A DNA stretch of 64,000 nucleotides, from assembly GCA_017526585.1 (NCBI GenBank), contig JAFXRC010000057.1:1-64000 (forward strand), read 5' to 3'. Of the stretch, positions 35,241-52,360 are shown piece by piece. Within the stretch, counting starts at the first letter, position 1. Each line of letters starts with the position of its first letter. The notes beneath the pieces were generated by a model. That model worked only from the letters and a program-made list of their open reading frames with translations. It was not told the origin of the DNA and searched no databases. Origin of the DNA: Fibrobacter sp. (GTDB lineage: Bacteria > Fibrobacterota > Fibrobacteria > Fibrobacterales > Fibrobacteraceae). The translations under genes and the position numbers were made by a program.

Positions 35241-37205
35241 ATGAAATTTCAAGAATCCTGCCCTAAAAAAATGGCTCTTGCCATTTCGGTGATGTCCGCT
35301 TTTATCTGGTCGCTTTCGTCTTGTGCTTCGAGCAAGAACGATGCGGTGGTGGAACAGCCCACTGTTTCTGAAACGCAACCGTCTGTTCAGCCTTTGCCGC
35401 AGTCGGTTCCTACGACTCTGTTTGAAACGAAGAAGGTGGGTGACGATAGGCAGGTGCGTGTCGTGGAAAAGCCAACGCTTGCCGCCCTTGATTTTGCTGC
35501 GTATTACAGCAATCCGATTCGCTTGGCGGGTAAGGATGAAAAGCCCGAGAACTATACCGGAAAGATGGCTGCGGTAACCGTGGCGGAATATCCGTTCCCG
35601 ATGCTTAGTTCCGTGTCGGAAACCGAGCCTGCGGTGGTCGCAGGTAGAGCCCCCCTTGCGTGGGAGCCGCTTTCAAAAATTCTCTACGCCCAGGTGGGCA
35701 ATGATTCCCTGGGGGTCCTGCTCAATGCCGTCGAGTCGGTCAAGTGGGATGAACCCGAAGTCTTCCGAGCCTTCCAGACTGTCTCTCGATTGTGGGGCGT
35801 GCCCATGAGTGATGGTTCCGTGGAATGGTGGGTCGAGGTGACTCCGGCTGCTTGGACGGGGCGCAAGGCTTTCTACGGAAAACTCAACCTGGTTTCGCAC
35901 GGCGAAACGGCTGAAATTTTGAATTATTACCTGACGGCAGAAATGAATGCCGAAGATGCGATGAACTGGGCTCGCACACTATCTTCCTATTGGTATCCCA
36001 CCTTGAATACCGACCTGGAAGTGCATACGCCAGGTGCTCCGTGGGAATCTCTCGAAAGCAGCAGACCTTTTGCGGTGATGCGTGGAAACCCGATGGGGAC
36101 TCCGATGTGGATCGCCTTTGAAGTGCCGGACTTCCGCTTGAGTGACGAGGCCCTGCGTGCTCGTGCCGTGGCGGATTCTTTGGCGGCGGCAGGCGAGGTG
36201 GTTCCTGTGAACCGGACTCTTGATACGAGTTCCGCATTCCGCTTGCAGACCCTAGCTGCATTGGAAGGAACTTGCCCCGCAAATGATGCTACCGCGAAGT
36301 TCCGCGATGCCCTCAAGAAAAAACTTGCGAAATTGCCGAAGGAACAGAACGCCTGGGCTGCAAATGAGATGCTCTGGTTCCGCCGCAACGCGAATTACCT
36401 GCTTGCCGATAAGATAACGGCGCAGGATTCCCTGCACAATCCGCTTCCGCGCCTTCTGGAACTCAAGAAGTACCTGGATTCCTTGAATGTGCAGCTCCTG
36501 GTGGTGCCGGTACCCGTGAAAGAGGAAATCTACGGAGAACGCCTTGTCGAAGGCACTGCTGCAGACCTTTGCGTAAATCCGGCCGGTCGCGAATTTACCC
36601 GCGAAATGCTTGCCGCAGGGCTCGACGTACTTGACCTTTATCCGGCGCTGATGGCGGCGAAGTCGGGTGACGAGCCGCCGCACTATAGCTACCAGCGTTA
36701 CGATACGCACTGGGCTCTGCCTGGAATGCTTGCTGCGTTGGAACAGCTGGCGGCGCGCATCACGCAGTATTCCTGGTATGCTGAATCGGGCGCACAGCCG
36801 GGTTCGCTAACCATGCAGGAGATGGTGACACTTCGCGAAGGTGATTTGGTGGCGCACTTACCCGATGCCGAAAAGTCGAAGTATCCTGCTGACACCTTGG
36901 CGGCAATGAAGGTTTTCAAGGGCTCGGAACCTTACAAGGGCGGCAAGAATTCTCCGATCCTCTTGATGGGCGATTCCTTTACGGGCGTCTTTGAGTCGGT
37001 CGACCAGAAGTCGGGTGGTCCGGGTTCACTACTTGCCTTTGCGACGGGTCTCGATGTTCAGGTGCTTACGAGTTGGGGTGGTGGCCCTGGCGTGTATCAC
37101 CGCATGATGAAAATGAAGAAGGATATGCAGAGCAAACGCCTTGTCATCTACATGATGACCGCTCGTGATTTCTGGCAGTCCCCGATGGAATGGGACGCTC
37201 TTTAG
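35241..37205 (+). CDS. AlgX/AlgJ-like SGNH lipoprotein
   Basis: 654 residues. Lipobox in the N-terminus (MSAFIWSLSSCASS). The N-terminal ~330 residues are unfamiliar beta-rich sequence. The C-terminal half resembles AlgX/AlgJ/DHHW SGNH proteins: WFRRNANYLL, LNVQLLVVPVPVKEEIYG, YQRYDTHWALPGM (the DTHW Asp-His pair) and ILLMGDSFTGVF with the nucleophile Ser. Such proteins transfer acetyl groups to exopolysaccharide with an MBOAT partner; one lies at 26288. First gene of the operon with the TIGR02171 lipoproteins. A start at ATG 35271 is possible. Confidence 0.7.
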   Translation: MKFQESCPKKMALAISVMSAFIWSLSSCASSKNDAVVEQPTVSETQPSVQPLPQSVPTTLFETKKVGDDRQVRVVEKPTLAALDFAAYYSNPIRLAGKDEKPENYTGKMAAVTVAEYPFPMLSSVSETEPAVVAGRAPLAWEPLSKILYAQVGNDSLGVLLNAVESVKWDEPEVFRAFQTVSRLWGVPMSDGSVEWWVEVTPAAWTGRKAFYGKLNLVSHGETAEILNYYLTAEMNAEDAMNWARTLSSYWYPTLNTDLEVHTPGAPWESLESSRPFAVMRGNPMGTPMWIAFEVPDFRLSDEALRARAVADSLAAAGEVVPVNRTLDTSSAFRLQTLAALEGTCPANDATAKFRDALKKKLAKLPKEQNAWAANEMLWFRRNANYLLADKITAQDSLHNPLPRLLELKKYLDSLNVQLLVVPVPVKEEIYGERLVEGTAADLCVNPAGREFTREMLAAGLDVLDLYPALMAAKSGDEPPHYSYQRYDTHWALPGMLAALEQLAARITQYSWYAESGAQPGSLTMQEMVTLREGDLVAHLPDAEKSKYPADTLAAMKVFKGSEPYKGGKNSPILLMGDSFTGVFESVDQKSGGPGSLLAFATGLDVQVLTSWGGGPGVYHRMMKMKKDMQSKRLVIYMMTARDFWQSPMEWDAL

Positions 37206-37954
37206 TCTCTATGTGGGCTCGACTCTCCGCACTCGCAAAGCGCCTGTTTTGGCCATTGCTGCTGATTGTGCTTGCGACTTCGCTTGCGCTGGTACTTTGG
37301 AGTGGTCGCAGTGAGAAGATGAGTTTCCGCGATGCGGCCTGTACTTTTGAAGACAAGTTGCCAGGCTGCTTGGATGCAGTGCCGGCATGGAACGGCGGGT
37401 TAGCTTTTTATGACAGCGCTTTGAATGCTTCGGGCGACACCTTGCAGAGCCTAAGGGATTTGCTCTGGGGTTACTGGAACCTGGAATTTGCAGGGGCGGG
37501 CGATGCCGCGGTGACTAGGGATGCAATCCTTCCGCTTCGTGTTATCGAAACGCGAAAGTCGGGGTGCATGGGGCTTTCGTGGCTTGCGATGATGGTTGCT
37601 GAATCGCGGCAGATTCCGCTTGCGGTAATGATGCTTCCGGGACATGTGTTCCTGCGCTACGGTGAAGGTGTTTCGGCGGTGAATTTGGAACCCAACCGCG
37701 AAGGCTATGGCTATACAGATGCCGAATACCGCGAAAAGTACAAGGCTGGTCCTTGGACCGGTCTTGAATTTGTTCCGCTGACTTCTGCTCAGTTTGTGGG
37801 CCTTGCCGCATTCAACATGGGAAATGTTTATCTCGACAGCGACTTGCGCCGCGCTTTGACCTGGTACCGCATGGCTGAAACATTCTTCCCGGAGTATCCG
37901 GGAATCAAGGCGAACCAGGAAATAGCGAAAAGCCGTTTACCGGACCATCTTTAG
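37190..37954 (+). CDS. Transglutaminase-like membrane-anchored protein
   Basis: 254 residues. A membrane segment (LFWPLLLIVLATSLALVLW) precedes a domain like SirB1/transglutaminase-core proteins: RKSGCMGLSWLAMMVAES with the cysteine, PLAVMMLPGHVFLRYG with the histidine and NLEPNREGYGY. The C-terminus has a TPR-like helical pair (GNVYLDSDLRRALTWYRMAE). It overlaps the AlgX-like gene by 16 bases if ATG 37190 is used; ATG 37211 is the alternative. Its role is unknown. Confidence 0.65.
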   Translation: MGRSLVSMWARLSALAKRLFWPLLLIVLATSLALVLWSGRSEKMSFRDAACTFEDKLPGCLDAVPAWNGGLAFYDSALNASGDTLQSLRDLLWGYWNLEFAGAGDAAVTRDAILPLRVIETRKSGCMGLSWLAMMVAESRQIPLAVMMLPGHVFLRYGEGVSAVNLEPNREGYGYTDAEYREKYKAGPWTGLEFVPLTSAQFVGLAAFNMGNVYLDSDLRRALTWYRMAETFFPEYPGIKANQEIAKSRLPDHL

Positions 37955-37977
37955 GTGCTTCTGGGGGGCGAAAATGC

Positions 37978-37988
37978 TATTTTTAGGG
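37978..37988 (+). promoter_or_regulatory. TATTTTTAGGG box before the first TIGR02171 gene
   Basis: TATTTTTAGGG ends two bases before ATG 37991. It matches the recurrent TATNTTT box of this window, but AGGG could equally serve as the ribosome site. A secondary promoter inside the operon is possible. Confidence 0.3.
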
Positions 37989-37990
37989 TA

Positions 37991-40768
37991 ATGTTGATCG
38001 CGTTACTTTTCCTATCTATTTCTTTTTTGGCAGCCTGTTCTAATTCTGTGGGAGCGTCGGCTAGTCATGACGAAAAGCCTTTTTTTGAGAAAGACTCCTC
38101 TACGGAAATGGTTCCTGTGAATGCAGGTAATGCGTTGGCGGTTTTAGGAACCAATAGCGATCTTGCTAAAGTAAATGAACGCCCGCAAATGCAGGTTTCC
38201 CTGAATTACGAATTTTCGATGGGACAACATGAAGTGACCTGCGGAGAATTCAATGAACTGATGAAGACTTTTTCGGGGCTTGAGCTCGAATGCGATCATG
38301 ATAGCCTTCCTGCGACGAATTTGACTTTTTATGATGCGGTCCTTTTTGCTAATGAACGGAGCAAGGCTGAGCGCCTTGATACGGTTTATTCCTATAGCGG
38401 AGCGATTTTCGATAACGAAAGACATTGTACGAACCTAGAAGGCTTCGTGTTTCATCCAGAAGTGGACGCATACCGCTTGCCGACCGAGGCGGAATGGGTG
38501 CTTGCAGCGGTCCAGAACTGGAATCCGCAAAATGCTTGGACTGCCGAAAATTCGGATTATAAATTGCACAAGGTATGCGGCAAGGCTGATTCGACGGCGA
38601 AATTCTGCGACATGGTTGGAAATGCAATGGAGTGGGTAAACGACTGGCTTGGCGGCTTCCGCGATACGACGCTTTCGAACTATGTGGGTGCCCCCGATGG
38701 GGGATCGCTTGGTCAGCGTATTGTAAAGGGGGGTAGTTTCCGAAATGCGGCCAGTTCCATAACGCTTTATGGAAGGGGCGATGTCTATACGGTTACTTCT
38801 TCGACTCGTGCGGACTATGTCGGCTTTCGAATTGCAAAGGGTTCCATTCCTAGTGCAGTCTGGATGGGGACCGATGGCAAGGCGGCTGAAAGTAGAGTTG
38901 CCCTACTGGCTTCGTCGGCGACGATGCGTTCCGTGATGGGAACGTACAAGGTGAAGCTCGTCTTTAGAAACGACCTTTCGGGGAACCTTGCCTATGTGGA
39001 CTATTCCGGCGGAATCCTCTCGGTCGTGGAAATTTTGGATTCTATCGAAGTCTATCATCCGGAAATTTCCCCGGACGGGAAGCGCGTCGCTTTCTGCACG
39101 GGTCTCGAAGGTGTTTCGGGTAAGTCCGAACTTTATGTGCGCGACTTGAATGCGGATGGCTCGAACCTCGTGAAACTCAAGGTGGAAAGTGCCGCGATTC
39201 CGCGCTGGCGTGTGCTTGAAAATGGAGATACGGTAATCGTCTATGTGACCGATGCGGGTAACAACAAGGATGAAACCTCCTTCAAGTCCACATCTACTTG
39301 GCAGGTGAAATTCTCGAACGGCAAGTTCGGTACGCCACAGAAACTTTTCGATGGCGCTTACCATGGTGGCATCAGCGAAGACAATACCTTGGCCGTCACG
39401 GGGGCGCGCCTTCTGCGTGCCCGCATCGCAAAGAAAGGCTCGACGCTGACTAATGCCCGCGATACCATCTGGTACAAGGACGGTGTCAATGCGGAACAGG
39501 CCTGCAATGTATCACTTTCGAAGGACGGCAGCAAGCGTACTGCGTTTCTCGATTTCGGTGGCAAGACGGGGCGTGCCTTTGTCGGTAAAAGCTATGCCAC
39601 GCACGAACGCCTGCTGATTGCCGACAGCACCGGAACTTTGCAAATGTCCGTGGCGGCTCCTTCTGGATTTACTTTTGACCACAGCGAATGGGCAACCGGC
39701 GCGGAAAATAAGGTCGTAGCGACGCTCACGAATGTAAATGGGGCGCACCAGAAGGTTGTGCTTGTCGATTTAGCCGACAGTTCCGTCGTGGATCTTCTGG
39801 AAGGAGACGAACTCTGGCACCCGAGTTTGTGGGTGAATGGCGCGATGAGTGTCGTTAATGTTGTGCTCGATAAGGACAGCGCTGGATTCTATATGCGAGA
39901 AGGTGATGCTTGGGGCGTTGCTCTGATGCGCCAAAATATGGAATTGCTGTGGCAATATAAGGATTCTGTTGATGTAGCTGTAGTCGGTTCTTCCAGGTCG
40001 ATGTTCTCGACGATGCCTTCGTTGATGAGCGATGATTTCTTTATGGTGAACTTCTCGCAGACCCCGAATAGTATTCACATGTCCAAGGATTTTCTCGATT
40101 TGTATTTATTCCATCACTTGAAAAAATTGAAGTATGTGATCGTTTCTCTGGATTTTGACTTTTGGTTTAAAATGGGTGACGAAGAGAGTGATAACTTCTT
40201 CCAAAATACTTACCGTAGCTATCCAGGCTATGTATATGACAAAAATCATAATTATTGGCAGGACGGATACCCCGAGGGATTGCTTGAATATACGAAAAAT
40301 GATTTGAATGTAGAACCGTATTTGCAGTTTGAAACGGATCGGGGAGCTCTGCTAGAATATTTCTGTGGCGGATGGCGAGTGGATGATCCGCTTGTAGAAG
40401 TCGATACGACTGCATTTGACAGCCAACTTTATTTGTATGAAAATAGCCTGAATTCCCTGATTGGAATAATTGAAAGTGCTCAAAATAGGGGCGTTACCGT
40501 AATAGGTGTCGTCTTCCCGCAGAATCCGTATTATAAGAATACGGGCTCGTTTGGACGCTATGGCACTCGCCGGAGTCTTGCAGAAAAGTATATCTCTTAT
40601 TTTGAAGAATTAGCATCGCAGTATTCCAACTTTATTTTTCTAGATGAGAATAAGATGGGAAATCATGAATATCGTGCAGAGCTGTTTGCTGATGAAGACC
40701 ACCTATGCGTTGAAGGCGCGAAGGTGTTTTCTGCGAAACTTGATTCCCTGTTGAGAACATTGAAATGA
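37991..40768 (+). CDS. TIGR02171-family lipoprotein, copy 1 (FGE-like, propeller, SGNH-like)
   Basis: About 925 residues from ATG 37991, with lipobox ISFLAAC. Three parts follow. The first is an FGE/SUMF1-like fold at about 40-290: SMGQHEVTCGEFNELM, YRLPTEAEWVLAAVQNW, NAMEWVNDWLGG, VKGGSFRNAA and YVGFRIA. The second is a TolB/PD40-like propeller at about 310-620 (EISPDGKRVAFCTG, SELYVRDLNADGSNL). The third is an SGNH-like domain at about 645-925: VAVVGSSRS, VIGVVFPQNPYYKNTGSFG, FLDENKMGNHEY and DEDHLCVEGA. The FGE cysteines are absent. The family is known from Fibrobacter with no assigned function; surface attachment is inferred from the lipobox. Confidence 0.85.
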   Translation: MLIALLFLSISFLAACSNSVGASASHDEKPFFEKDSSTEMVPVNAGNALAVLGTNSDLAKVNERPQMQVSLNYEFSMGQHEVTCGEFNELMKTFSGLELECDHDSLPATNLTFYDAVLFANERSKAERLDTVYSYSGAIFDNERHCTNLEGFVFHPEVDAYRLPTEAEWVLAAVQNWNPQNAWTAENSDYKLHKVCGKADSTAKFCDMVGNAMEWVNDWLGGFRDTTLSNYVGAPDGGSLGQRIVKGGSFRNAASSITLYGRGDVYTVTSSTRADYVGFRIAKGSIPSAVWMGTDGKAAESRVALLASSATMRSVMGTYKVKLVFRNDLSGNLAYVDYSGGILSVVEILDSIEVYHPEISPDGKRVAFCTGLEGVSGKSELYVRDLNADGSNLVKLKVESAAIPRWRVLENGDTVIVYVTDAGNNKDETSFKSTSTWQVKFSNGKFGTPQKLFDGAYHGGISEDNTLAVTGARLLRARIAKKGSTLTNARDTIWYKDGVNAEQACNVSLSKDGSKRTAFLDFGGKTGRAFVGKSYATHERLLIADSTGTLQMSVAAPSGFTFDHSEWATGAENKVVATLTNVNGAHQKVVLVDLADSSVVDLLEGDELWHPSLWVNGAMSVVNVVLDKDSAGFYMREGDAWGVALMRQNMELLWQYKDSVDVAVVGSSRSMFSTMPSLMSDDFFMVNFSQTPNSIHMSKDFLDLYLFHHLKKLKYVIVSLDFDFWFKMGDEESDNFFQNTYRSYPGYVYDKNHNYWQDGYPEGLLEYTKNDLNVEPYLQFETDRGALLEYFCGGWRVDDPLVEVDTTAFDSQLYLYENSLNSLIGIIESAQNRGVTVIGVVFPQNPYYKNTGSFGRYGTRRSLAEKYISYFEELASQYSNFIFLDENKMGNHEYRAELFADEDHLCVEGAKVFSAKLDSLLRTLK

Positions 40769-43554
40769 GACTATTGTTTTTCATCCTAGTCTCATTAGTA
40801 GTTCTCGGCTGCTCGAATTCGGAGAGCGTTTCGGTGCCACCTCAAGAAGCGTCTGTTGATTTCTCCGAAGATTCCTTGTCAGGAATGATTCGTGTCAAGG
40901 CGACGGAATCGACAATTGTTTTGGGAACGACTCTTGTGGAGGCGCGCGCGAATGAACGCCCTGAATTGCAGGTAAAATTTAATTACGATTTTTCGATGGG
41001 TCGCCATGAGGTGACTTGCGGCGAATTTAACGCCCTGATGAAATCTGCGACGGGGCTGTCCTTGGATTGCGAAGGTGATGAAATCCCTGCGACGAACGTG
41101 ACTTATTACGATGCAGTCCTGTTCGCTAATGAGCGCAGCAAGGCGGAAGGCTTCGATACGGCTTATACCTATACGGTGGCGAGTTTTGACGCTGCGAAAC
41201 ATTGTACCAATTTAGAAGGCTTCGCTTACCGTTCCGAGGTTAATGCATACCGCTTGCCGACCGAGGCGGAATGGGTGCTTGCAGCGGTCCAGAACTGGAA
41301 TCCGCAAAATAGCTGGACCGCCGAAAATTCGGATTACAAGCTGCACAAGGTTTGCGGCAAGGCGGATACTTCGGCGAAGTCGGGAGAACTCTGCGACATG
41401 GCGGGCAACGCGATGGAGTGGGTGAACGACTGGCTAGGCAATTTCCGTGATACGACGCTTGAAAACTATGTGGGCGCCCCCGACGGTGGAGCGCTGGGGC
41501 AACGAGTCGTGAAGGGTGGCAGCTACCGCAATGCGGTAGAGGCTATCAACCTGTATAGCCGCGGCGATATTTATACGGTGACATCGTCTACGAGGGCTGA
41601 TTATGTGGGCTTTCGCTTGGCGTTCGGCGCTATCCCCGATGCGGTATGGATGGGAAACGATGGTCGTGCAAATGATTCACGCATCGTTCCTCTTGCAAGC
41701 TCCGCGACAATCCGTTCCCTCGTCGGCACCTACAAGGCGAAACTTGCGTTCAGGAACGAACTTTCGGGAAATCTCGCTTTCATCGACTATTCTGGCGGAA
41801 TCCTCTCGGTCGTGGAAATTTTGGATTCTATCGAAGTCTATCATCCGGAAATTTCCCCGGACGGGAAGCGTGTCGCTTTCTGCACGGGTCTCGAAGGTGT
41901 TTCGGGTAAGTCCGAACTTTATGTGCGCGACTTGAATGCAGATGGCTCGAACCTCGTGAAGCTCAAGGTGGAAAGTGCCGCGATTCCGCGCTGGCGCATT
42001 CTTGAAAATGGCGATACGGTAATCGTCTATGTGACCGATGCGGGCAATAATAAGGATGACGCTGCGTTTAAGTCGGCGGCTACTTGGCAGGTGAAATTCT
42101 CGAATGGCAAATTTGGCTCGCCTAAGAAACTTTTCGACGGCGCGTATCACGGCGGCATCAGCGAAGACAACACCCTTGCCGTGACGGGAGCGCGCCTTCT
42201 CCGCGCCCGTATCGCAAAGTCGGGCTCGACGCTCACGGAAAAAGCCCGCGATACCATCTGGTACAAGGACGGTGACGATGCGGAACAAGCCTGCAACGCA
42301 TCGCTTTCGAAAGACGGCAGCAAGCGTACCCTCTTCCTCGATTTCGGTGGCAAGACGGGGCGAGCCTTTGTCGGTAAAAGCTACGCCACGCATGAACGCC
42401 TACTGATTGCCGACAGCACCGGAACTTTGCAAAAGTCCGTAGCGGCACCTTCCGGCTTTACCTTCGACCATAGCGAATGGGCGAGTGGTACCGCCGATAA
42501 GGTCGTAGCGACGCTCACGAATATAAACGGGGCGCACCAGAAGGTTGTGCTGGTGAATCTCTCCGACAATTCCGTTGTAAATCTCATCGAAGGCGAAGAC
42601 CTTTGGCATCCCTGCTTTTGGGTGAGCGACAATTCCTTTGAAAACGATGACGTGCTGCTAGATTTGGATAGCGCCGGGGTGTACTTTAATAATCTAGGCG
42701 GCGAAGGGGCTATTGTCCTTCGTTACAAGATGGAGCTTCTTTGGAATTATAAGGATTCCGCTAATGTCGTTGTCGTGGGCTCGTCGCGACCGCTTGGCGC
42801 CATCAATCCGCTGGAAATGGGTGTACCTTTCTTTGTATTGAACCTGTCCAATGTTCCGAACATGATGGTTGTTTCTGAATACCTCTTGCTAAACTATGTC
42901 ATTCCGCATGTGAAAAATCTGAAATACATAGTTGTGTCTCTCGATATTGACTTGTGGTATCATTCAGAATACGAAAGCTACAATTTCTTCTATCAGGAAT
43001 ACCTGAATTATCCGGGATATGTGTATGACAGAAATCATAACTACTGGAAAGACGGTTTCCCCGAAAAGATAAGCCGCTTGACAGAGGAATCGCTTGGATT
43101 GGGTTATTATCAGAATAACCTTGTGGCGTCTCGCGGCTTTAATTACGAAGAATCGAATACATGGGAAAAGAATCCCTCCGTCGATAACGATAGTACTTGG
43201 ATGGATAACCTCTCCGCCAATTACGAGGCGAGCCTTGGACACTTGAAAAACATATTGCGCGAATCGGAACAGGCGGGAGTCTATGTAATAGGAGTTGTTT
43301 TCCCGCAGAGTCCGAATTTTAAGAAGACCGGTTCGTTTGGAAAATACGGCATTCGAAGAAGTGAAGCTCCTGCTTTGCTGGACGGTCTCAAAAAACTGGA
43401 AAAAGAATATCCTCATTTTGTTTTCTGGGATGAAAATAAAATGGGAGACCATGACTATACGGATGAAATGGCCGCGAATAAGGATCACCTGTGTGCCCTC
43501 GGTGCAACGCAGTTCACTTCTCGCTTGGATTCCCTTCTGCGAACTCTGAAATGA
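40765..43554 (+). CDS. TIGR02171-family lipoprotein, copy 2
   Basis: 929 residues with lipobox LVVLGCSNS. Same three-part architecture as copy 1. FGE-like and propeller regions are close to those of copies 1 and 3, including a 132-base stretch identical to copy 3. The SGNH-like region is more divergent but keeps VVVVGSSRP, VVFPQSPNFKKTGSFG, WDENKMGDHDYTDE and KDHLCALGA. ATGA overlaps at both ends couple it to copies 1 and 3. Confidence 0.85.
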   Translation: MRLLFFILVSLVVLGCSNSESVSVPPQEASVDFSEDSLSGMIRVKATESTIVLGTTLVEARANERPELQVKFNYDFSMGRHEVTCGEFNALMKSATGLSLDCEGDEIPATNVTYYDAVLFANERSKAEGFDTAYTYTVASFDAAKHCTNLEGFAYRSEVNAYRLPTEAEWVLAAVQNWNPQNSWTAENSDYKLHKVCGKADTSAKSGELCDMAGNAMEWVNDWLGNFRDTTLENYVGAPDGGALGQRVVKGGSYRNAVEAINLYSRGDIYTVTSSTRADYVGFRLAFGAIPDAVWMGNDGRANDSRIVPLASSATIRSLVGTYKAKLAFRNELSGNLAFIDYSGGILSVVEILDSIEVYHPEISPDGKRVAFCTGLEGVSGKSELYVRDLNADGSNLVKLKVESAAIPRWRILENGDTVIVYVTDAGNNKDDAAFKSAATWQVKFSNGKFGSPKKLFDGAYHGGISEDNTLAVTGARLLRARIAKSGSTLTEKARDTIWYKDGDDAEQACNASLSKDGSKRTLFLDFGGKTGRAFVGKSYATHERLLIADSTGTLQKSVAAPSGFTFDHSEWASGTADKVVATLTNINGAHQKVVLVNLSDNSVVNLIEGEDLWHPCFWVSDNSFENDDVLLDLDSAGVYFNNLGGEGAIVLRYKMELLWNYKDSANVVVVGSSRPLGAINPLEMGVPFFVLNLSNVPNMMVVSEYLLLNYVIPHVKNLKYIVVSLDIDLWYHSEYESYNFFYQEYLNYPGYVYDRNHNYWKDGFPEKISRLTEESLGLGYYQNNLVASRGFNYEESNTWEKNPSVDNDSTWMDNLSANYEASLGHLKNILRESEQAGVYVIGVVFPQSPNFKKTGSFGKYGIRRSEAPALLDGLKKLEKEYPHFVFWDENKMGDHDYTDEMAANKDHLCALGATQFTSRLDSLLRTLK

Positions 43555-46349
43555 TGAAGCTGATATTCGCCATTCTTGTTTTGCTGGTTTGCGCCTGCTC
43601 CAATTCGGAGAGTGTTTCTGTGGCGCATCAGGGCGATTCTGTTGATGTTTTGGAGGACTCGCTTTCGGGAATGCTTCGAATCGTTGCTTCCGGTGCGACA
43701 GTTGTCTTGGGAACGAACGCGGACAACGCTCCGGTAAGCGAACGCCCCGAGATGCAGATAAAGTTCGACTACGATTTTTCGCTGGGTCGCCATGAGGTGA
43801 CTTGCGGCGAGTTTAACGCGCTGATGAAATCCGCAGTGGGGCAGGGGCTGTCCTTGGATTGCGAAGGTGATGAAATCCCTGCGACGAACGTGACTTATTA
43901 CGATGCAGTCCTGTTCGCTAATGAGCGCAACAAGGCGGAAGGCTTCGATACGGCTTATACCTATACGGTGGCGAGTTTTGACGCTGCGAAACATTGTACC
44001 AATTTAGAAGGCTTCGCTTACCGTTCCGAGGTTAATGCATACCGCTTGCCGACCGAGGCGGAGTGGGTGCTTGCCGCATCGCAGAAATGGAATGTACAGA
44101 ACGGTTGGACCGCTGAAAATTCAGATTACAAACTGCACAAGGTCTGTGGCAAGGCGGATACTTCGGCGAAGTCGGGTGAACTCTGCGACATGGCGGGTAA
44201 TGCCATGGAGTGGGTGAACGACTGGCTAGGCAATTTCCGAGATACGACGCTTGAAAATTATGTGGGTGCCCCCGATGGCGGCGCGCTGGGACAGCGTGTC
44301 GTAAAGGGCGGCAGCTACCGCAATGCATCGGAATCTATCAGCTTGTATAGCCGCGGCGATGTGTATACGGTGACCTCTTCGACCCGCGCCGATTATGTGG
44401 GCTTTCGCCTGGCGTTCGGTGCTATTCCCGATGCGGTATGGATGGGTTCCGACGGTAGGGCGAATTCCAGCAGGGTAGTCCCGATTGCAAGTTCTGCGAC
44501 AATCCGTTCCCTTGTCGGTACCTACAAGGCAAAACTTGCGTTCAGAAACGACCTCTCGGGAAACCTCGCCTATATCGATTATTCCAGCGGAATCCTCTCG
44601 GTCGTGGAAATTGCGGATTCTATCGAAGTCTATCATCCGGAAATTTCCCCGGACGGTAAACATGTCGCTTTTTGCACGGGCCTCGAAGGTGTTTCGGGCA
44701 AGTCCGAGCTTTATGTGCGCGACTTGAATGCGGAAGGTTCAAACCTCGTAAAGCTCAAGGTGGAAAGTGCCGCGATTCCGCGCTGGCGCATTCTTGAAAA
44801 TGGCGATACGGTAATCGTCTATGTGACCGATGCGGGTAACAACAAGGATGAAACCGCCTTCAAAGCTGCGTCGACCTGGCAGGTGAAATTTTCGAATGGC
44901 AAATTTGGCTCGCCCAAGAAACTTTTCGATGGCGCGTATCACGGTGGCATCAGCGAAGACAACACACTTGCCGTGACGGGAGCGCGCCTCCTCCGCGCTC
45001 GCATCGCAAAGCTGGGCTCGACGCTTACGGAAAAAGCCCGCGATACAATCTGGTACAAGGACGGCGACGATGCGGAACAGGCTTGCAATGCCTCCCTTTC
45101 GAAGGACGGCAGCAAGCGCACCTTGTTCCTCGATTTCGGCGGCAAGACGGGGCGTGCCTTTGTCGGTAAAAGCTACGCTACGCACGAACGCCTGCTGATT
45201 GCCGACAGCACCGGAACCTTGCAAAAGTCCGTGGCGGCTCCTTCCGGCTTCACCTTCGACCATAGCGAATGGGCGAGTGGCACCGCCGATAAGGTCGTTG
45301 CGACGCTTACGAATGTAAACGGGGCTCACCAGAAAATCGTCCTGATTGACATCTCCGACTCTAGCCTCGTCGAACTCGTCCAGGGCGATGAAATTTGGCA
45401 TCCGAGCTTCTGGACGAGTGGAAAAGCCTTTGCCTCGAACGATGTGCAGCTGGACTTGGATAGCGCCGGTGCCTATATGAATCCCGGTGATGAGTGGGGG
45501 CCGGTCCTGATGCGTTATAACATGGAGCTTTTGTGGCGCTACCGCGACTCAGTCAATGTCGCCATTATCGGTTCTTCCCGTCCCTTCTATTCTTTGTCGC
45601 CAGGGGCCTTGTCGCCTGAATTTTTTGCGGTGAATTTGGCTCACACCCCTAATTCAATTTATGCTTCTCGCGATTATCTTGAAAAGTACCTGATTCGTCA
45701 CTTGAAGAACTTGAAATATGTCGTGGTTTCGCTGGATATCGATTTCTGGAATAAAGTCGATGGTCCGGAGGGTGATAATTTTTTTGCCGTTACCTACAAA
45801 AAATATCCCGGCTATGTGTACGATGAAAATCACGGATACTGGGATGAAGGCTATCCGACCGGTTTGCTGGAGTGTACCGAAAATTCCGTATCGGTGACCG
45901 ATGGCAATCTGTATCTGGATGACCGTGGTCGGTATATGGGAACATATTGCATTTCATGGGGTGGGACGCCCGAAGTAGAAATGGATTCCACTTATTTTGA
46001 TGATAGAATGTATCTGGTCGAAAATAGTCTGGAAGCTTTGAAAAGCATTGTTGAAGTCTCGTTAAATAGAAACATCCATGTGGTAGGGATGATTTTTCCC
46101 CAGAATCCCAGGTATAAGGAAACGGGGGCTTTTGGACGTTATGGGATGCGGCGTAGTCTGGCGAAGTCCTTAATTGACCGGTTCCACGAATTTGAAACAA
46201 TCTATCCGAATTTCACACTGCTTGATGAAAATAAGATGGGAAATCACGATTATTCCGACAGCGAGGCGGTGGATGCCGACCATCTGTGTAGTCAAGCGAC
46301 TCCTAAAATAACTTATCGCCTAGATTCCCTTCTGAGAACTTTGAAATGA
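43551..46349 (+). CDS. TIGR02171-family lipoprotein, copy 3
   Basis: 932 residues from ATG 43551 (43554 also possible), lipobox LVLLVCACSNS. The architecture is as in copy 1. The frame extends upstream to 43491, but that part would overlap copy 2 in another frame and lacks a signal peptide, so it is rejected. C-terminal motifs: VAIIGSSRP, MIFPQNPRYKETGAFG, LDENKMGNHDYSD and DADHLCSQA. This copy and copy 4 begin with almost the same signal peptide. Confidence 0.85.
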   Translation: MMKLIFAILVLLVCACSNSESVSVAHQGDSVDVLEDSLSGMLRIVASGATVVLGTNADNAPVSERPEMQIKFDYDFSLGRHEVTCGEFNALMKSAVGQGLSLDCEGDEIPATNVTYYDAVLFANERNKAEGFDTAYTYTVASFDAAKHCTNLEGFAYRSEVNAYRLPTEAEWVLAASQKWNVQNGWTAENSDYKLHKVCGKADTSAKSGELCDMAGNAMEWVNDWLGNFRDTTLENYVGAPDGGALGQRVVKGGSYRNASESISLYSRGDVYTVTSSTRADYVGFRLAFGAIPDAVWMGSDGRANSSRVVPIASSATIRSLVGTYKAKLAFRNDLSGNLAYIDYSSGILSVVEIADSIEVYHPEISPDGKHVAFCTGLEGVSGKSELYVRDLNAEGSNLVKLKVESAAIPRWRILENGDTVIVYVTDAGNNKDETAFKAASTWQVKFSNGKFGSPKKLFDGAYHGGISEDNTLAVTGARLLRARIAKLGSTLTEKARDTIWYKDGDDAEQACNASLSKDGSKRTLFLDFGGKTGRAFVGKSYATHERLLIADSTGTLQKSVAAPSGFTFDHSEWASGTADKVVATLTNVNGAHQKIVLIDISDSSLVELVQGDEIWHPSFWTSGKAFASNDVQLDLDSAGAYMNPGDEWGPVLMRYNMELLWRYRDSVNVAIIGSSRPFYSLSPGALSPEFFAVNLAHTPNSIYASRDYLEKYLIRHLKNLKYVVVSLDIDFWNKVDGPEGDNFFAVTYKKYPGYVYDENHGYWDEGYPTGLLECTENSVSVTDGNLYLDDRGRYMGTYCISWGGTPEVEMDSTYFDDRMYLVENSLEALKSIVEVSLNRNIHVVGMIFPQNPRYKETGAFGRYGMRRSLAKSLIDRFHEFETIYPNFTLLDENKMGNHDYSDSEAVDADHLCSQATPKITYRLDSLLRTLK

Positions 46350-49114
46350 TGAAGTTGATATTCGCTCTGATTGTTTTTTTGATTTGCGCATGCTCCAATT
46401 CGGAGAGTGTCTCCGAGACAGTGCCGAACGGGTCTGCTGATGTCAAGGAAAAATCTCTTTTGGGAATGCTACGCGTTGAAGCCTCTGGTGCGACGGTTGT
46501 CTTGGGAACGAATTCGGACAACGCTCCGGCAAGTGAACGCCCCGAAATGCGTGTGAAGTTTAGTTACGATTTTTCGCTGGGCGTGCATGAGGTGACTTGT
46601 GGAGAATTTAACGCCCTGATGAAAACCGCGACGGGACTGTCCCTGGATTGTGTCACGGATAGCATTCCCGCGACGAATGTGACTTATTACGATGCGGTTC
46701 TGTTCGCCAATGAACGCAGCAAGGCGGAAGGTTTCGACACGGCTTATACCTATACCTCTGCGTCGTTCGATGCCGAAAAGCATTGCATAAACATAGACGC
46801 CCTGGCGTATCACCCAGAAAAGAATGCGTACCGTTTGCCAACCGAGGCGGAGTGGGTGTTTGCCGCATCGCAGGATTGGAATGTTCTGAACGGCTGGACT
46901 GCTGAAAATTCAGACTACAAATTGCATAAGGTTGGTAGCAAAGCGAAATCGGGTGGCTTTTACGACATGGTCGGCAACGCCATGGAGTGGGTGAACGACT
47001 GGCTGGGCAACTTCCGCGATACGATTCTTGAAAATTTTGTGGGTGCACCCGACGGCGGCGCGCTCGGACAACGAATTGTGAAGGGCGGCAGCTACCGTAA
47101 TGCGGTGGAGTCTATCAACTTGTATAGCCGCGGTGATATCTATACGGTTTCGTCGTCAACCCGCGCCGATTATGTCGGCTTCCGCCTGGCGCATGGTAAT
47201 ATTCCTGGCGCGGTATGGATGGGTTCCGACGGCAGGGCGAATTCCAGCAGGGTAATCCCGCTTGCAAGTTCTGCGACAGTCCGTTCCCTTGTCGGTACCT
47301 ACAAGGCGAAACTCGCGTTCAGGAACGACCTTTCGGGAAACCTCGCCTTCATCGACTATTCCGGCGGAATTCTCTCGGTCGTAGAAATTGCGGATTCAAT
47401 CGAAGTTTATCATCCTGAAATATCCCCGGACGGGAAGCATGTAGCTTTCTGCACGGGTCTCGAAGGTCTGTCGGGAAAATCTGAGCTTTATGTGCGTGAC
47501 TTGAATGCTGAAGGGACGAACCTCGTGAAGCTCAAGGTGGAAAGTGCCGCGATTCCTCGCTGGCGCGTGCTTGAAAATGGAGATACGGTAATCGTTTATG
47601 TGACCGATGCGGGTAACAACAAGGATGACGCTGCGTTTAAGTCTGCGTCTACTTGGCAAGTGAAATTTTCGAACGGGAAGTTTGGTACACCACAGAAACT
47701 TTTCGATGGCGCTTACCATGGCGGCATCAGCGAAGATAACACCTTAGCCGTGACGGGTGCACGCCTCTTCCGTGCCCGTATCGCAAAGCCGGGCTCGACG
47801 CTTACGGAAAAAGCCCGTGATACTATCTGGTACAAGGACGGTGACGACGCCGAACAGGCCTGTAACGCATCGCTTTCGAAAGATGGCACCAAGCGCACCC
47901 TGTTCCTCGATTTCGGCGGCAAGACGGGGCAAGCCTTTGTCGGTAAAAGCTACGCCACGCATGAACGCCTGCTGATTGCCGACAGCACCGGAACTTTGCA
48001 AAAGTCCGTGGCGGCACCTTCCGGCTTTACCTTCGACCATAGCGAATGGGCGAGTGGCACCGCCGATAAGGTCGTAGCGACGCTCACGAATGTAAACGGC
48101 GCTCACCAGAAAATCGTCCTGCTAGACATCTCTGACTCTAGCCTCGTCGAGCTCGTTCAGGGTGATGAAATCTGGCATCCGAGTTTCTGGACGAGTGAAA
48201 AAGCCTTTGCCTCGAATGATGTGCAGCTGGACTTGGATAGCGCCGGCGTGTACTTGCAAGAAAGTTGTTTGAGCTCCTTGAGCACGCTCCGCATAAAGAT
48301 GGAAGCGTATTGGAAGTATTTGGAACAGACAAATGTCATTCTTGTGGGAAGTTCGAGAATGCAGAGAGGCGTCAATCCCGACCTTTTCCCGGAATGGAAA
48401 ATGCTGAATTTCGGGGTGCTGGGAATCGATCCCAATAGGGACTTGTACTTCATTGAAAACTATGTGATGAATCATCTGGATGAAATCAAGGCGATTGTGC
48501 TGAGCTTGGATTTTGATAACTGGCATGGAATTGAGGATCATCTGGGGTATCTTTTGTCTGCAGCTCCAGGGTTTATGTACGATGCGAATCATGGCTTCTG
48601 GAAAGACGGTGTTCCGAAGGGCTTTGTGGAAGCGGTTGAAAATTCGTATCCACCCCTTGAAGCGGAGCGTAAGACTTTTTCGGAACGCGGCAATATGATT
48701 AGCGAAGTTCACAGTTGGGATTTCCACGAAATAGAGGTGCTGAACGATTCCATGGTGACTGATCAACGCTGGGCTCTTGTCGATAACAGTATCGCACGCC
48801 TGGTCAATATCGTCGATGAGGTCTCCAAGAAAAATATCTATGTCATCGGCATCATTTTCCCGCAAGCGCCCATGTATAAAAAGACGGGTTCCATTGGCTT
48901 GTACGGATTCCAGCGGAGTGCCGCACGAAAGCTTATTGACCGACTTGATTCAATTGATCGTGTGAAAAGTCATTTTGTGTTGATGGATGAAAATAAAATG
49001 GGTGACCATGACTATACTGACGAAATGGCGCTCAATAGGGATCATCTAAGTTACTTGGGTGCGGAACGATTGACCAGACGCATTGATTCCCTGTTAAAGA
49101 CTCTGGAGTGGTAA
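46346..49114 (+). CDS. TIGR02171-family lipoprotein, copy 4, most divergent C-terminus
   Basis: 922 residues, lipobox IVFLICACSNS. FGE-like and propeller regions follow the other copies, though KADTSAKSGELCDM is shortened to a form without cysteines. The SGNH-like region differs most: VILVGSSRMQRGVNPDLFP, LSLDFDNWHGIEDHLGY, GIIFPQAPMYKKTGSIG, DENKMGDHDYTDEM and NRDHLSYLGA. The GSSR and DENKMG landmarks remain. It overlaps copy 3 by ATGA and is followed four bases later by the polytopic membrane protein. Confidence 0.85.
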   Translation: MMKLIFALIVFLICACSNSESVSETVPNGSADVKEKSLLGMLRVEASGATVVLGTNSDNAPASERPEMRVKFSYDFSLGVHEVTCGEFNALMKTATGLSLDCVTDSIPATNVTYYDAVLFANERSKAEGFDTAYTYTSASFDAEKHCINIDALAYHPEKNAYRLPTEAEWVFAASQDWNVLNGWTAENSDYKLHKVGSKAKSGGFYDMVGNAMEWVNDWLGNFRDTILENFVGAPDGGALGQRIVKGGSYRNAVESINLYSRGDIYTVSSSTRADYVGFRLAHGNIPGAVWMGSDGRANSSRVIPLASSATVRSLVGTYKAKLAFRNDLSGNLAFIDYSGGILSVVEIADSIEVYHPEISPDGKHVAFCTGLEGLSGKSELYVRDLNAEGTNLVKLKVESAAIPRWRVLENGDTVIVYVTDAGNNKDDAAFKSASTWQVKFSNGKFGTPQKLFDGAYHGGISEDNTLAVTGARLFRARIAKPGSTLTEKARDTIWYKDGDDAEQACNASLSKDGTKRTLFLDFGGKTGQAFVGKSYATHERLLIADSTGTLQKSVAAPSGFTFDHSEWASGTADKVVATLTNVNGAHQKIVLLDISDSSLVELVQGDEIWHPSFWTSEKAFASNDVQLDLDSAGVYLQESCLSSLSTLRIKMEAYWKYLEQTNVILVGSSRMQRGVNPDLFPEWKMLNFGVLGIDPNRDLYFIENYVMNHLDEIKAIVLSLDFDNWHGIEDHLGYLLSAAPGFMYDANHGFWKDGVPKGFVEAVENSYPPLEAERKTFSERGNMISEVHSWDFHEIEVLNDSMVTDQRWALVDNSIARLVNIVDEVSKKNIYVIGIIFPQAPMYKKTGSIGLYGFQRSAARKLIDRLDSIDRVKSHFVLMDENKMGDHDYTDEMALNRDHLSYLGAERLTRRIDSLLKTLEW

Positions 49115-49118
49115 GAGT

Positions 49119-50756
49119 ATGCGCCGGCTTGACATCGACAGGATGGTTCTCTTTTTGCCGGCTTTCTTGGTGGCGCTCTTTTCTGTTTTCCCGCTGACCG
49201 ATACCGATATCTGGTGGCATCTTGCCTGTGCCCGCGAGTGGGTGAATGCCTGGACGCCTGTGCGCACCCCCGTGGTGAATGTACACGAGTATTTTCAGGC
49301 CGTTGTCGCTTTTGTATACGGCGTTGGCGGCGCCCCTCTGCTGGTGGCGTTCAAGGCAGTTTTGTGGGGTGTCGTTTTTGCGCTGTTTTTATCTAATGGC
49401 AGCCGCGGCGCGGTTCTGGAAAAGAATGTCATTGCGAGCCCCACAGGAGAGCCTGCCACGAGCGTAGCGTGGTGGTGGCAATCTCTAATTGCAGTTTTTC
49501 TCCTTTTCGTTTTTCGCTATCATTTTGAGATTCGTCCGGTGCTTTTTACGCTCCTGTTTCTAGGAATTTATTGGAAAGTTTTGCCAGGGATTTTTGCTGT
49601 TCGTCATTGCGAGTCCCACGGGAACACTGATCTTGCTTTTTCTGGGTGTGTGAAACGTCATTGCGAGCCCCGTAGGGGCGCGGCAATCTCTAGAGGCTGC
49701 ACAGTGGCTTTAATTCTTGCAATTCAGTGGCTCTGGTGCAAGTGCCAGGGACTTTATATTCTGGGCCCGCTTTTTGCGCTGCTAGTGTTGCTGGTTTGCG
49801 TCTGGAATTCCCGACGGGTTGGGGAGAAACTTTCGACAGGTTCTGTTGCGTGGCGCGCTGCATTCGTGCTTGGCCTGTTTTCGATGCCGTTCCTGCATCG
49901 TGATGGACTGAACCTGTTTCTGTATCCGTTCGGGCTTTTGGACCGTCTGTTGGGACTTTCGCCTTCTGCAGCCGTTTTCGCCAGTGAAATCGCCGAGAAC
50001 CGTTCCCCGGTAACGCTTCTGGTGGCGGGGGAGAATACGCTTGAAAGCGTGCTGATGATTGCGCTGTGCTTCTTGGGATTTTTTGTAGGTCTGCGTCGCT
50101 TGCTGCGTCCTTCGCCTTGTATACCGCCACGAGCGACCGAAGGGAGCGAAGCAATCTCTAGAAGATTGATTCAAAATATCGCACTTCTTGTGACCGCAAT
50201 CCTCGCCCTTGTCGCCGAACGCAACTTTGTGCTGTTTTTGCCGTTGCTTTTAGGGACCGCTTGCGAGCTTCGTTTTGGGGGATGTGCTTTCGGAACAGCT
50301 CGGTGCAGCGGCGTTGTAAAGTATGCCTGCTTCATCGTCATCGCCTTTTGCTTGGGTCTCTGGGCGCGTTCCCTTGCCGCTTACGACTACTCGATGGTTG
50401 CTTGTCAGCGTGTCCCTGTCGATGCAGCGGAATGGATGCGGCAAAATCCTCATGCCGGCAGGCTCTTTAACGATGACCGCGCAGGCGGCTACTTGGCGTT
50501 TGTGAATCCCGCCGATTCGATTTACATGGATGGAAGGTTCATCTTGAAGACGGCAGAATTCTTTGGGCGGTATTTGGAATATGCAAATAATCCGTCGCTG
50601 TTCATCGCTGATGCCGACTCCTTGAATATCGATCGCGCTATCTTCCCGCTGCGCTATTACGCCCGCTGGGATGCCCTGCTGCAAGCCCTCGAAAACGCGC
50701 CACGCTGGCACCTTGCCTACCGCGACAACTACTTCGCCGTCTTCGATAAATTCTAG
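49119..50756 (+). CDS. Polytopic membrane protein with in-frame REP-like insertions
   Basis: 545 residues, about ten membrane segments. The motif PLTDTDIWWHLACAREWV after the first helix resembles GT-C-fold and related membrane proteins with an acidic pair in the first external loop. The C-terminal soluble part (PVDAAEWMRQNPHAGRLFND, GGYLAFVNPADSIYMDGRF) resembles that of the same group. Function unknown; sugar transfer to an envelope polymer is possible. Three regions of the coding sequence are REP-like repeats read as protein (residues ~104-123, ~162-192 and ~335-349), all in loops between helices. Last gene of the operon, followed by a terminator. Confidence 0.65.
   Translation: MRRLDIDRMVLFLPAFLVALFSVFPLTDTDIWWHLACAREWVNAWTPVRTPVVNVHEYFQAVVAFVYGVGGAPLLVAFKAVLWGVVFALFLSNGSRGAVLEKNVIASPTGEPATSVAWWWQSLIAVFLLFVFRYHFEIRPVLFTLLFLGIYWKVLPGIFAVRHCESHGNTDLAFSGCVKRHCEPRRGAAISRGCTVALILAIQWLWCKCQGLYILGPLFALLVLLVCVWNSRRVGEKLSTGSVAWRAAFVLGLFSMPFLHRDGLNLFLYPFGLLDRLLGLSPSAAVFASEIAENRSPVTLLVAGENTLESVLMIALCFLGFFVGLRRLLRPSPCIPPRATEGSEAISRRLIQNIALLVTAILALVAERNFVLFLPLLLGTACELRFGGCAFGTARCSGVVKYACFIVIAFCLGLWARSLAAYDYSMVACQRVPVDAAEWMRQNPHAGRLFNDDRAGGYLAFVNPADSIYMDGRFILKTAEFFGRYLEYANNPSLFIADADSLNIDRAIFPLRYYARWDALLQALENAPRWHLAYRDNYFAVFDKF
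49428..49487. repeat. REP-like repeat copy (long variant) within the membrane-protein gene
   Basis: Begins GTCATTGCGAGCCCC and ends GGCAATCTCTA, with an inner CCACGAGCGTAGCGTGGTGG block. It is read in frame as part of the protein. Confidence 0.7.
49602..49624. repeat. REP-like half copy within the membrane-protein gene
   Basis: CGTCATTGCGAGTCCCACGG, matching the left arm of the repeat; the right arm is absent. Confidence 0.55.
49656..49694. repeat. REP-like repeat copy (short variant) within the membrane-protein gene
   Basis: CGTCATTGCGAGCC, then CCGTAGGGG, then CGCGGCAATCTCTAGA. Both outer blocks are identical to those of the copy at 32791-32828 on the opposite strand. Confidence 0.75.
50125..50164. 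repeat. REP-like right-arm copy within the membrane-protein gene
   Basis: CGCCACGAGCGACCGAAGGG followed by AGCGAAGCAATCTCTAGAA. It shares CCACGAGCG and GCAATCTCTA with the copy at 49428. Confidence 0.6.
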
Positions 50757-50770
50757 CCTCGCCGAACATA

Positions 50771-50802
50771 AAAAAGGCCCGGCACGAATGCCGGACCCCT
50801 TT
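50771..50802. terminator. Terminator between the lipoprotein operon and the GH5 gene (bidirectional)
   Basis: AAAAAGGCCCGGCA-CGAA-TGCCGGACCCCTTT: a 9-bp stem with one mismatch, A-rich on the left and T-rich on the right. It can end both the operon and the convergent GH5 transcript. Confidence 0.75.
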
Positions 50803-50831
50803 CTCTCTCGTTGGTAAAACCAATTTCAAGT

Positions 50832-52190: not shown

Positions 52191-52263
52191 TATAAACATC
52201 CCTTTTTTACTTGAAAATAGGTTTTCTTCGCAAAAAACGGAAAAAAAAGAACTTCTTTTTTGT

Positions 52264-52277
52264 TTACATGCGTGTAA
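52264..52277. promoter_or_regulatory. Palindrome TTACA-TGCG-TGTAA between GH5 and the propeller gene
   Basis: A 5-bp inverted repeat with a 4-base centre in the divergent intergenic region, 74 bases upstream of the GH5 start. A similar TGTAA/TTACA pair lies 86 bases before the GH11 start. Confidence 0.3.
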
Positions 52278-52360
52278 TATGTGAGTTTTATCATGTTTTT
52301 GGGGTCTTGAGTGCCGTTTTTTAGGGGATTTTACTAGATTAGGGGAACTTTGAGGTTTAT

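Follow-up and report, generated by a model that had tools for sequence, protein, structure and literature searches.

A conserved Fibrobacter gene cassette with tandem TIGR02171 lipoproteins, a candidate MBOAT-SGNH O-acyl transfer system

Acylation by an MBOAT protein and its SGNH partners is already known from the AlgIJX, PatAB and Wss systems. FXYXXF was shown to be the acyl-Tyr shuttle motif of PatA (PMC12148441), and TDTHW and PxK are the signature motifs of AlgJ (PMC4148444). Here we analyse a seven-gene cassette of Fibrobacter sp. (GenBank assembly GCA_017526585.1, contig JAFXRC010000057.1, positions 1 to 64,000 of the forward strand; ‘the window’ is this whole 64,000-nucleotide stretch) that encodes an AlgX-like SGNH lipoprotein (gene 1), a transglutaminase-like protein (gene 2, TGL), four tandem lipoproteins of the family TIGR02171 (T1–T4) and a polytopic membrane protein (gene 7, POLY). 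Judged by its gene content and order, its motifs, fold predictions and co-occurrence across genomes, the cassette probably represents, on balance, the version in Fibrobacter of an AlgI/AlgJ/AlgX-type MBOAT-SGNH system for O-acyl transfer that occurs across the phylum, joined by a GT-C enzyme and by recruited tandem SGNH lipoproteins. TIGR02171 is a large lineage-specific Fibrobacter lipoprotein family without an assigned function, and the MBOAT-SGNH link gives it a testable biochemistry, as well as providing an entry point to the surface chemistry of bacteria whose degradation of cellulose takes place only in close contact with it.

Gene order and co-occurrence of the cassette genes

The original prediction, made from the DNA letters, described seven co-directional genes with short overlaps and gaps, and the coordinates of the open reading frames (ORFs) bear this out: all seven lie on the plus strand between positions 35241 and 50756, with a 16-base overlap of genes 1 and 2, a 36-base gap between gene 2 and T1, three ATGA overlaps among T1–T4 and a 4-base gap between T4 and gene 7. 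The four proteins that had been read from the sequence as TIGR02171 all match the 912-position family model nearly end to end, and the five predicted lipoboxes (gene 1, with LSSC, and T1–T4) and the membrane segments of the other two products (one N-terminal hydrophobic segment in gene 2 and about a dozen predicted long helices in gene 7) were likewise recovered. A single transcript over the seven genes appears likely. The cassette genes and the two other genes of the window that we connect with them are:

35241-37205, plus strand: gene 1, AlgX-like SGNH lipoprotein (ORF list; PF16822, E=1.3e-18)
37190-37954, plus strand: gene 2 (TGL), transglutaminase-like protein with an N-terminal membrane anchor (PF13369, E=1.4e-7; alignment)
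37991-40768, plus strand: T1, TIGR02171 lipoprotein with predicted formylglycine-generating enzyme (FGE) fold, propeller and SGNH domain (1268 bits; alignment)
40765-43554, plus strand: T2, TIGR02171 lipoprotein, its SGNH domain (42646-43551) modelled (1320 bits; predicted local distance difference test score, pLDDT, 96.4; Foldseek SGNH matches)
43551-46349, plus strand: T3, TIGR02171 lipoprotein (1289 bits)
46346-49114, plus strand: T4, TIGR02171 lipoprotein (1257 bits)
49119-50756, plus strand: gene 7 (POLY), polytopic GT-C-like membrane protein (alignment; Foldseek; model pLDDT 66)
26288-27706, plus strand: MBOAT acyltransferase of the AlgI/PatA/DltB type (PF03062, E=5.8e-26; FLYFQF and WHG motifs)
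52361-53572, plus strand: PD40/TolB-like propeller protein (PF07676, 1.4e-16; adjoins cassette genes in loci L138, L140-L143 and L146)

A scan of the named genomes yielded 66 loci. In the named Fibrobacter loci, 18 of 19 AlgX genes have TGL directly after them on the same strand, 21 of 21 TGL genes likewise have TIGR02171 after them, and all 22 POLY genes come directly after a TIGR02171 gene, again on the same strand. AlgX, TGL and POLY occur together in 17 loci, with one to four TIGR02171 copies between TGL and POLY, and the junctions in Fibrobacter loci are tight (median gap 6 nt; overlap in 30 of 87). Random ordering of the families in related genomes, which the original prediction had named as the outcome that would speak against a unit, was not seen in this neighbourhood comparison: the order is conserved, and so the claim of a unit stands. 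In plant-fibre-degrading Fibrobacter, the seven genes form a genuine unit whose order is conserved.

The genus g12 has the order AlgX-TGL-POLY-T-T (L148, L150), and the TIGR02171 genes are therefore the movable part. In several other families of the phylum the MBOAT, an AlgJ-like protein, the gene 1 orthologue, TGL, POLY and the PD40 protein are encoded in one cluster, which is complete in L138 and which lacks at least one member, or has it elsewhere, in L139-L143, L146, L147 and L149. Genes for the MBOAT, AlgJ-like and gene 1 orthologues stand side by side in L138, L139, L140, L142, L143, L146, L147 and L149; POLY is found in L138, L143, L146 and L149, TGL in L138, L141 and L149, and the PD40 gene in six loci. 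The encoded proteins are about 25-57% identical to their window counterparts. Since these distant clusters, from which TIGR02171 is absent, hold the core without it, we take AlgX-TGL-POLY to be the old core, and TIGR02171 to have been recruited in Fibrobacteraceae. Judging by these neighbourhoods, the PD40 gene is probably a further cassette member, separated from gene 7 here by a minus-strand GH5 cellulase gene (50832-52382).

Presence and absence of the genes point in the same direction. Among 81 genomes of the genus, 62 carry both the MBOAT orthologue and AlgX and 15 neither, with four having the MBOAT alone (these genomes are 70-77% complete) and none AlgX alone; TGL and POLY follow the same pattern, each being present in 98 of 168 genomes. 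With thresholds that we set at E below 1e-80 for full-length TIGR02171 and below 1e-30 for AlgX, 154 of the 168 phylum genomes agree in the two families (both 92, neither 62, discordant 9 and 5; Fisher p=6.6e-30). As shared ancestry inflates genome-level p-values, we also give the count by genus, where 37 of 41 agree (both 18, neither 19, discordant 1 and 3; p=1.3e-7). Since the TIGR02171 survey scored no more than four candidates in each genome, it may have missed some copies. The core is present without TIGR02171 in genomes G033, G043, G046, G058 and G167. It is highly improbable that unrelated envelope genes merely ended up together here by chance or through recent common ancestry: most of the genomes compared do come from one genus, and most are metagenome-assembled genomes (MAGs), but these genes also stand next to one another in several other families, at the protein identities given above, and their presence and absence are shared across genera.

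Domain structure and mosaic evolution of the TIGR02171 lipoproteins

T1–T4 score 1257-1321 bits over nearly the whole TIGR02171 model, against a cut-off of 544. Pfam places an FGE-sulfatase domain and weak PD40 repeats on these proteins; the last 300 residues, that is the last third, were previously without domain annotation. The AlphaFold2 model of this C-terminus, for which 79 diverse members were used, is an alpha/beta fold (pLDDT 96.4), and its Foldseek matches in the PDB are PAF acetylhydrolase, GDSL acylhydrolases, sialic acid and xylan esterases and PatB, with a probability of 1.00 and a TM-score of about 0.65 by target length for PAF acetylhydrolase and the GDSL acylhydrolases. We assigned the SGNH fold from the fold search; a sequence-profile search of the domain against the PDB gave E=0.21 at best (acetyltransferase entry 6vjp). 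On this model a TIGR02171 protein is predicted to consist of an FGE fold, a propeller and a previously unannotated SGNH domain. Ser674 (GSSR), Asn693 and His908 (DHL) are invariant in 165 of 165 copies. The triad is not strict, since Asn often stands in for Asp three residues before the catalytic His; in the eight distant or divergent members listed this residue is Asp.

Could the SGNH end be hydrolytic? Its Foldseek neighbours include the acetylxylan esterases Axe2 and PbeAcXE and a sialic acid esterase, and the proteins are lipoproteins of a fibre degrader with GH5 or GH8 genes after the cassette. They could then be surface esterases that deacetylate plant xylan or dietary glycans, their place in the cassette reflecting shared regulation with growth on plant fibre. 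We consider this unlikely, since full-length TIGR02171 is nearly confined to genomes that carry the MBOAT-AlgX core and lies inside its operon, and since the domain and family library scans found neither a carbohydrate-binding module nor a type IX secretion system (T9SS) tail on TIGR02171 proteins. We prefer to read the SGNH end as a transferase, because the presence of TIGR02171 tracks that of the MBOAT core throughout the phylum.

The FGE domain raises another alternative. In T2 its closest solved relative is TvpA of Treponema denticola (2.6e-9), a target of a diversity-generating retroelement; a CotH entry is also among the best matches. An active formylglycine-generating enzyme is ruled out: the catalytic cysteines are absent, KGGSYRN stands in place of the Cys-bearing motif, and the conserved cysteines of the domain are located elsewhere than in the C-terminal motif. 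Membership of the T9SS family GldK/PorK is ruled out as well, at 26-33 bits against the GldK cut-off of 350, and nothing beyond the repeat motif (E=0.012) supports the idea that the propeller was copied from the PD40 gene at 52361-53572. The FGE fold of PorK likewise lacks catalytic cysteines and acts as a docking hub (PMC12421860), and TIGR02171 proteins might by analogy be structural or adhesive surface lipoproteins, with an FGE domain like that of PorK/GldK, a propeller and an SGNH end that binds instead of catalysing. The frequent Asn in place of the triad Asp would fit such a role. We nevertheless regard it as unlikely: all 165 copies keep the SGNH Ser and His, although elsewhere in that domain identity falls to 33-55% within a single array. 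In the literature searched no paper deals with TIGR02171 by name, and papers on the envelope proteome or the genomes of Fibrobacter are silent on it in their main text, by the terms used.

The four window copies differ strikingly in how far their domains have diverged, with identities of 87-94% in the propeller, 72-91% in the FGE domain and 33-55% in the SGNH domain. The break falls near residue 600-620, at the propeller/SGNH border, and the step is repeated at four-fold sites. For the FGE and propeller domains the nearest relatives are other window copies (marginally so for the T1 FGE domain, 0.72 vs 0.71), and for each of the four SGNH domains the nearest relative is a copy from another genome (83% to L066 for T2 and 67% to L071 for T1). 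This step is the pattern expected from domain-wise gene conversion, and suggests that such conversion has shaped the window array; plain tandem duplication without exchange is unsupported here, as the domains differ in their nearest relatives. Across all arrays the within-array preference is that of a minority (12 of 97 for FGE, 18 of 97 for the propeller and 2 of 97 for SGNH), and domain-wise exchange would be marked in the window array, weaker elsewhere and not universal.

TIGR02171 genes are also found outside the cassette. This genome (G000) carries a second pair (G000:C36:50166-55826), and solitary copies recur at two sites, one with neighbours that resemble pheT and dnaX by their first residues (L074, L081, L086, L089, L092, L097, L111, L119) and the other flanked by GH16 and GGDEF proteins (L104, L105, L108, L109, L115, L118). 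In a Fibrobacteraceae MAG, a gene upstream of the cassette encodes an extra FGE-domain protein (L113:4040-5461).

The MBOAT, the AlgJ/AlgX-like proteins and the GT-C-like protein

The MBOAT at 26288-27706 is the sole MBOAT match in this genome, although, the genome being 81% complete, another could be missing from it. The protein has the WHG histidine motif and ends in FLYFQF, which fits FXYXXF and ends every MBOAT orthologue read. Its closest solved relative is DltB (1.7e-26), and its distant orthologues are about 45-57% identical to it. Besides gene 1 the genome encodes a second AlgX-family protein, of 530 aa and AlgJ-like by its motifs, on contig C39. DTHW and GDSF/Y are present in all AlgJ/AlgX-like proteins examined and PxK in nearly all, the residues preceding DTHW not always being R/K-T. 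Gene 1 has a large N-terminal domain of unknown fold; its lipobox residue Cys28 is invariant in 20 orthologues, as are the catalytic motifs D488-T-H490-W and G577-D-S579-F. In gene 2, C126 and H152 are invariant in 23 sequences, and distant orthologues have TPRs in addition to PF13369.

Gene 7 found no family match in the domain and family library scans and none in the sequence-profile search. Its structure model (pLDDT 66) has GT-C proteins, DPY19 and STT3, as all of its top five Foldseek matches in the PDB, and the lower matches of this low-confidence model (AglB, PglB and ArnT) are all GT-C as well. An invariant TDTDxWWH motif lies near the N-terminus, at the first helix, and NDDRAGGY lies in the conserved C-terminal soluble domain; this arrangement would fit a GT-C enzyme, and we treat it as a lead. 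Given that the closest GT-C folds are protein glycosyltransferases, the core might instead be a protein O-glycosylation or acylation system for secreted proteins, with gene 7 as an oligosaccharyl- or mannosyltransferase, and not a system for polysaccharide modification. The TGL and propeller partners could suggest protein substrates, and the cassette has no polymer synthase. The low confidence of the gene 7 model counts against this alternative, as does the action of the MBOAT-SGNH systems named in the literature on glycan polymers (PMC12148441); overall we see it as possible without being likely. NAD-dependent epimerase and GT2 genes, which lie upstream of the ancestral cluster in several distant loci, are compatible with a protein or a polysaccharide substrate alike.

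Downstream of gene 7 the following feature was found:

about 50770-50805, no strand assigned: hairpin terminator lying between two convergent genes (only the minus strand has a strong U-tract)

The original prediction had the operon end in a terminator. A hairpin is indeed present after the stop codon; on the plus strand it has a z of -2.65 and the tail CTTTCTCTCTC, and the terminator scan flagged no plus-strand terminator after gene 7. On the minus strand it has -23.1 kcal/mol, a z of -4.35 and a strong U-tract, and because this U-tract is found on the minus strand only, the hairpin best serves the convergent GH5 cellulase gene. The number of promoters in the scan was no higher than chance. 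In or near the GH5 slot, many other loci have members of a GH8 family (a cluster in 17 loci) on the same strand as the cassette, and one GH8 member of this slot carries a type IX sorting tail.

Proposed acyl-transfer route and comparison with known systems

In the route that we propose, the MBOAT would load an acyl group, probably acetyl, from a cytoplasmic donor onto the Tyr of its C-terminal FLYFQF. Next, SGNH proteins outside the inner membrane, namely the AlgJ-like protein and gene 1, would receive the group on their catalytic Ser. These, and in Fibrobacteraceae the SGNH ends of TIGR02171 too, may acylate hydroxyls of an envelope glycan or glycoprotein, the sugar part of which gene 7 would move from a polyprenyl carrier. 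TGL and the PD40 propeller could be accessories. The FGE fold and propeller of TIGR02171 may form a docking scaffold, the divergent SGNH tips giving different acceptor or site preferences. More tentatively, and at rather less than even chances, we picture the tandem TIGR02171 proteins as modular acyltransferases on a shared scaffold, in which gene conversion keeps the FGE-propeller part near uniform within an array, whereas the SGNH tips are old and stay distinct. A single MBOAT would then supply a number of surface transferases that differ in specificity, in combination with the GT-C enzyme. If true, the multi-tip set would be a new, Fibrobacterota-specific architecture of envelope acylation.

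Several observations weigh against an MBOAT-SGNH system of this kind. The window MBOAT gene lies 7.5 kb upstream of the cassette, in another gene group and with unrelated genes between, the AlgJ-like protein is encoded on another contig, and many Fibrobacter genomes have their MBOAT gene on a separate contig too. The residue three before His908 is Asp in 69 of 165 copies and Asn in 93 of 165. The SGNH domain of TIGR02171 has its Ser first and its His last, whereas AlgJ/AlgX has Asp-x-His before Ser; Ser first and His last is the order of ordinary SGNH enzymes. The GT-C match of gene 7 depends on a low-confidence model. No synthase for an acceptor polymer is encoded in the cassette, and no processive glycan synthase was found among the window genes scanned. 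The genomes compared are not phylogenetically independent, and G101 and G148 (both Fibrobacter) as well as G164 carry long TIGR02171 matches without AlgX, TGL, POLY or a close MBOAT orthologue; these three are a natural test of whether TIGR02171 can work alone.

The original prediction of one cell-surface machine, perhaps modifying a polysaccharide, gains support from the gene order, the joint presence and loss, the MBOAT link and the distant epimerase and GT2 genes, and its suggestion that a polysaccharide is presented gains none. It did not include the MBOAT of the window, the SGNH domain at the end of each TIGR02171 protein, the lack of catalytic cysteines in their FGE fold, the likeness of gene 7 to GT-C enzymes or the PD40 gene past the cellulase gene. 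We have identified a phylum-wide candidate envelope-modification cluster; neither this cluster nor the combination of GT-C-like, TGL and PD40 proteins with tandem FGE-propeller-SGNH lipoproteins was found in the open-licence literature searched, which is weak evidence of absence.

Among described systems, AlgI/AlgJ/AlgF/AlgX of Pseudomonas shares with the Fibrobacter genes an MBOAT with a C-terminal FXYXXF and AlgJ-like and AlgX-like SGNH proteins with DTHW and GDSF-type motifs. Unlike it, the Fibrobacter cassette has no alginate synthase or AlgF and adds GT-C-like, transglutaminase-like, PD40 and tandem TIGR02171 proteins; its MBOAT is unlinked in many genomes, and gene 1 is a lipoprotein with a large N-terminal domain. 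PatA/PatB similarly pairs an MBOAT that has an acyl-Tyr shuttle with an SGNH partner, and PatB structurally matches the TIGR02171 SGNH domain, but it consists of one MBOAT and one SGNH partner, against SGNH proteins of three types and six or more TIGR02171 copies in this genome. All four window proteins are full-length members of the NCBIfam family Fb_sc_TIGR02171, the name and description of which include no function, SGNH C-terminal domain or MBOAT link. GldK/PorK and GldJ of type IX secretion are also outer-membrane lipoproteins with an FGE fold and without the catalytic cysteines; the window proteins score 18-33 bits against cut-offs of at least 350, and TIGR02171 adds a propeller and an SGNH domain. 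Finally, gene 7 resembles the GT-C enzymes (DPY19, STT3/PglB/AglB, ArnT) in being polytopic, in its acidic TDTD near the first helix, in its C-terminal soluble domain and in its Foldseek matches, and differs from them in having no sequence-level match and a model of low confidence.

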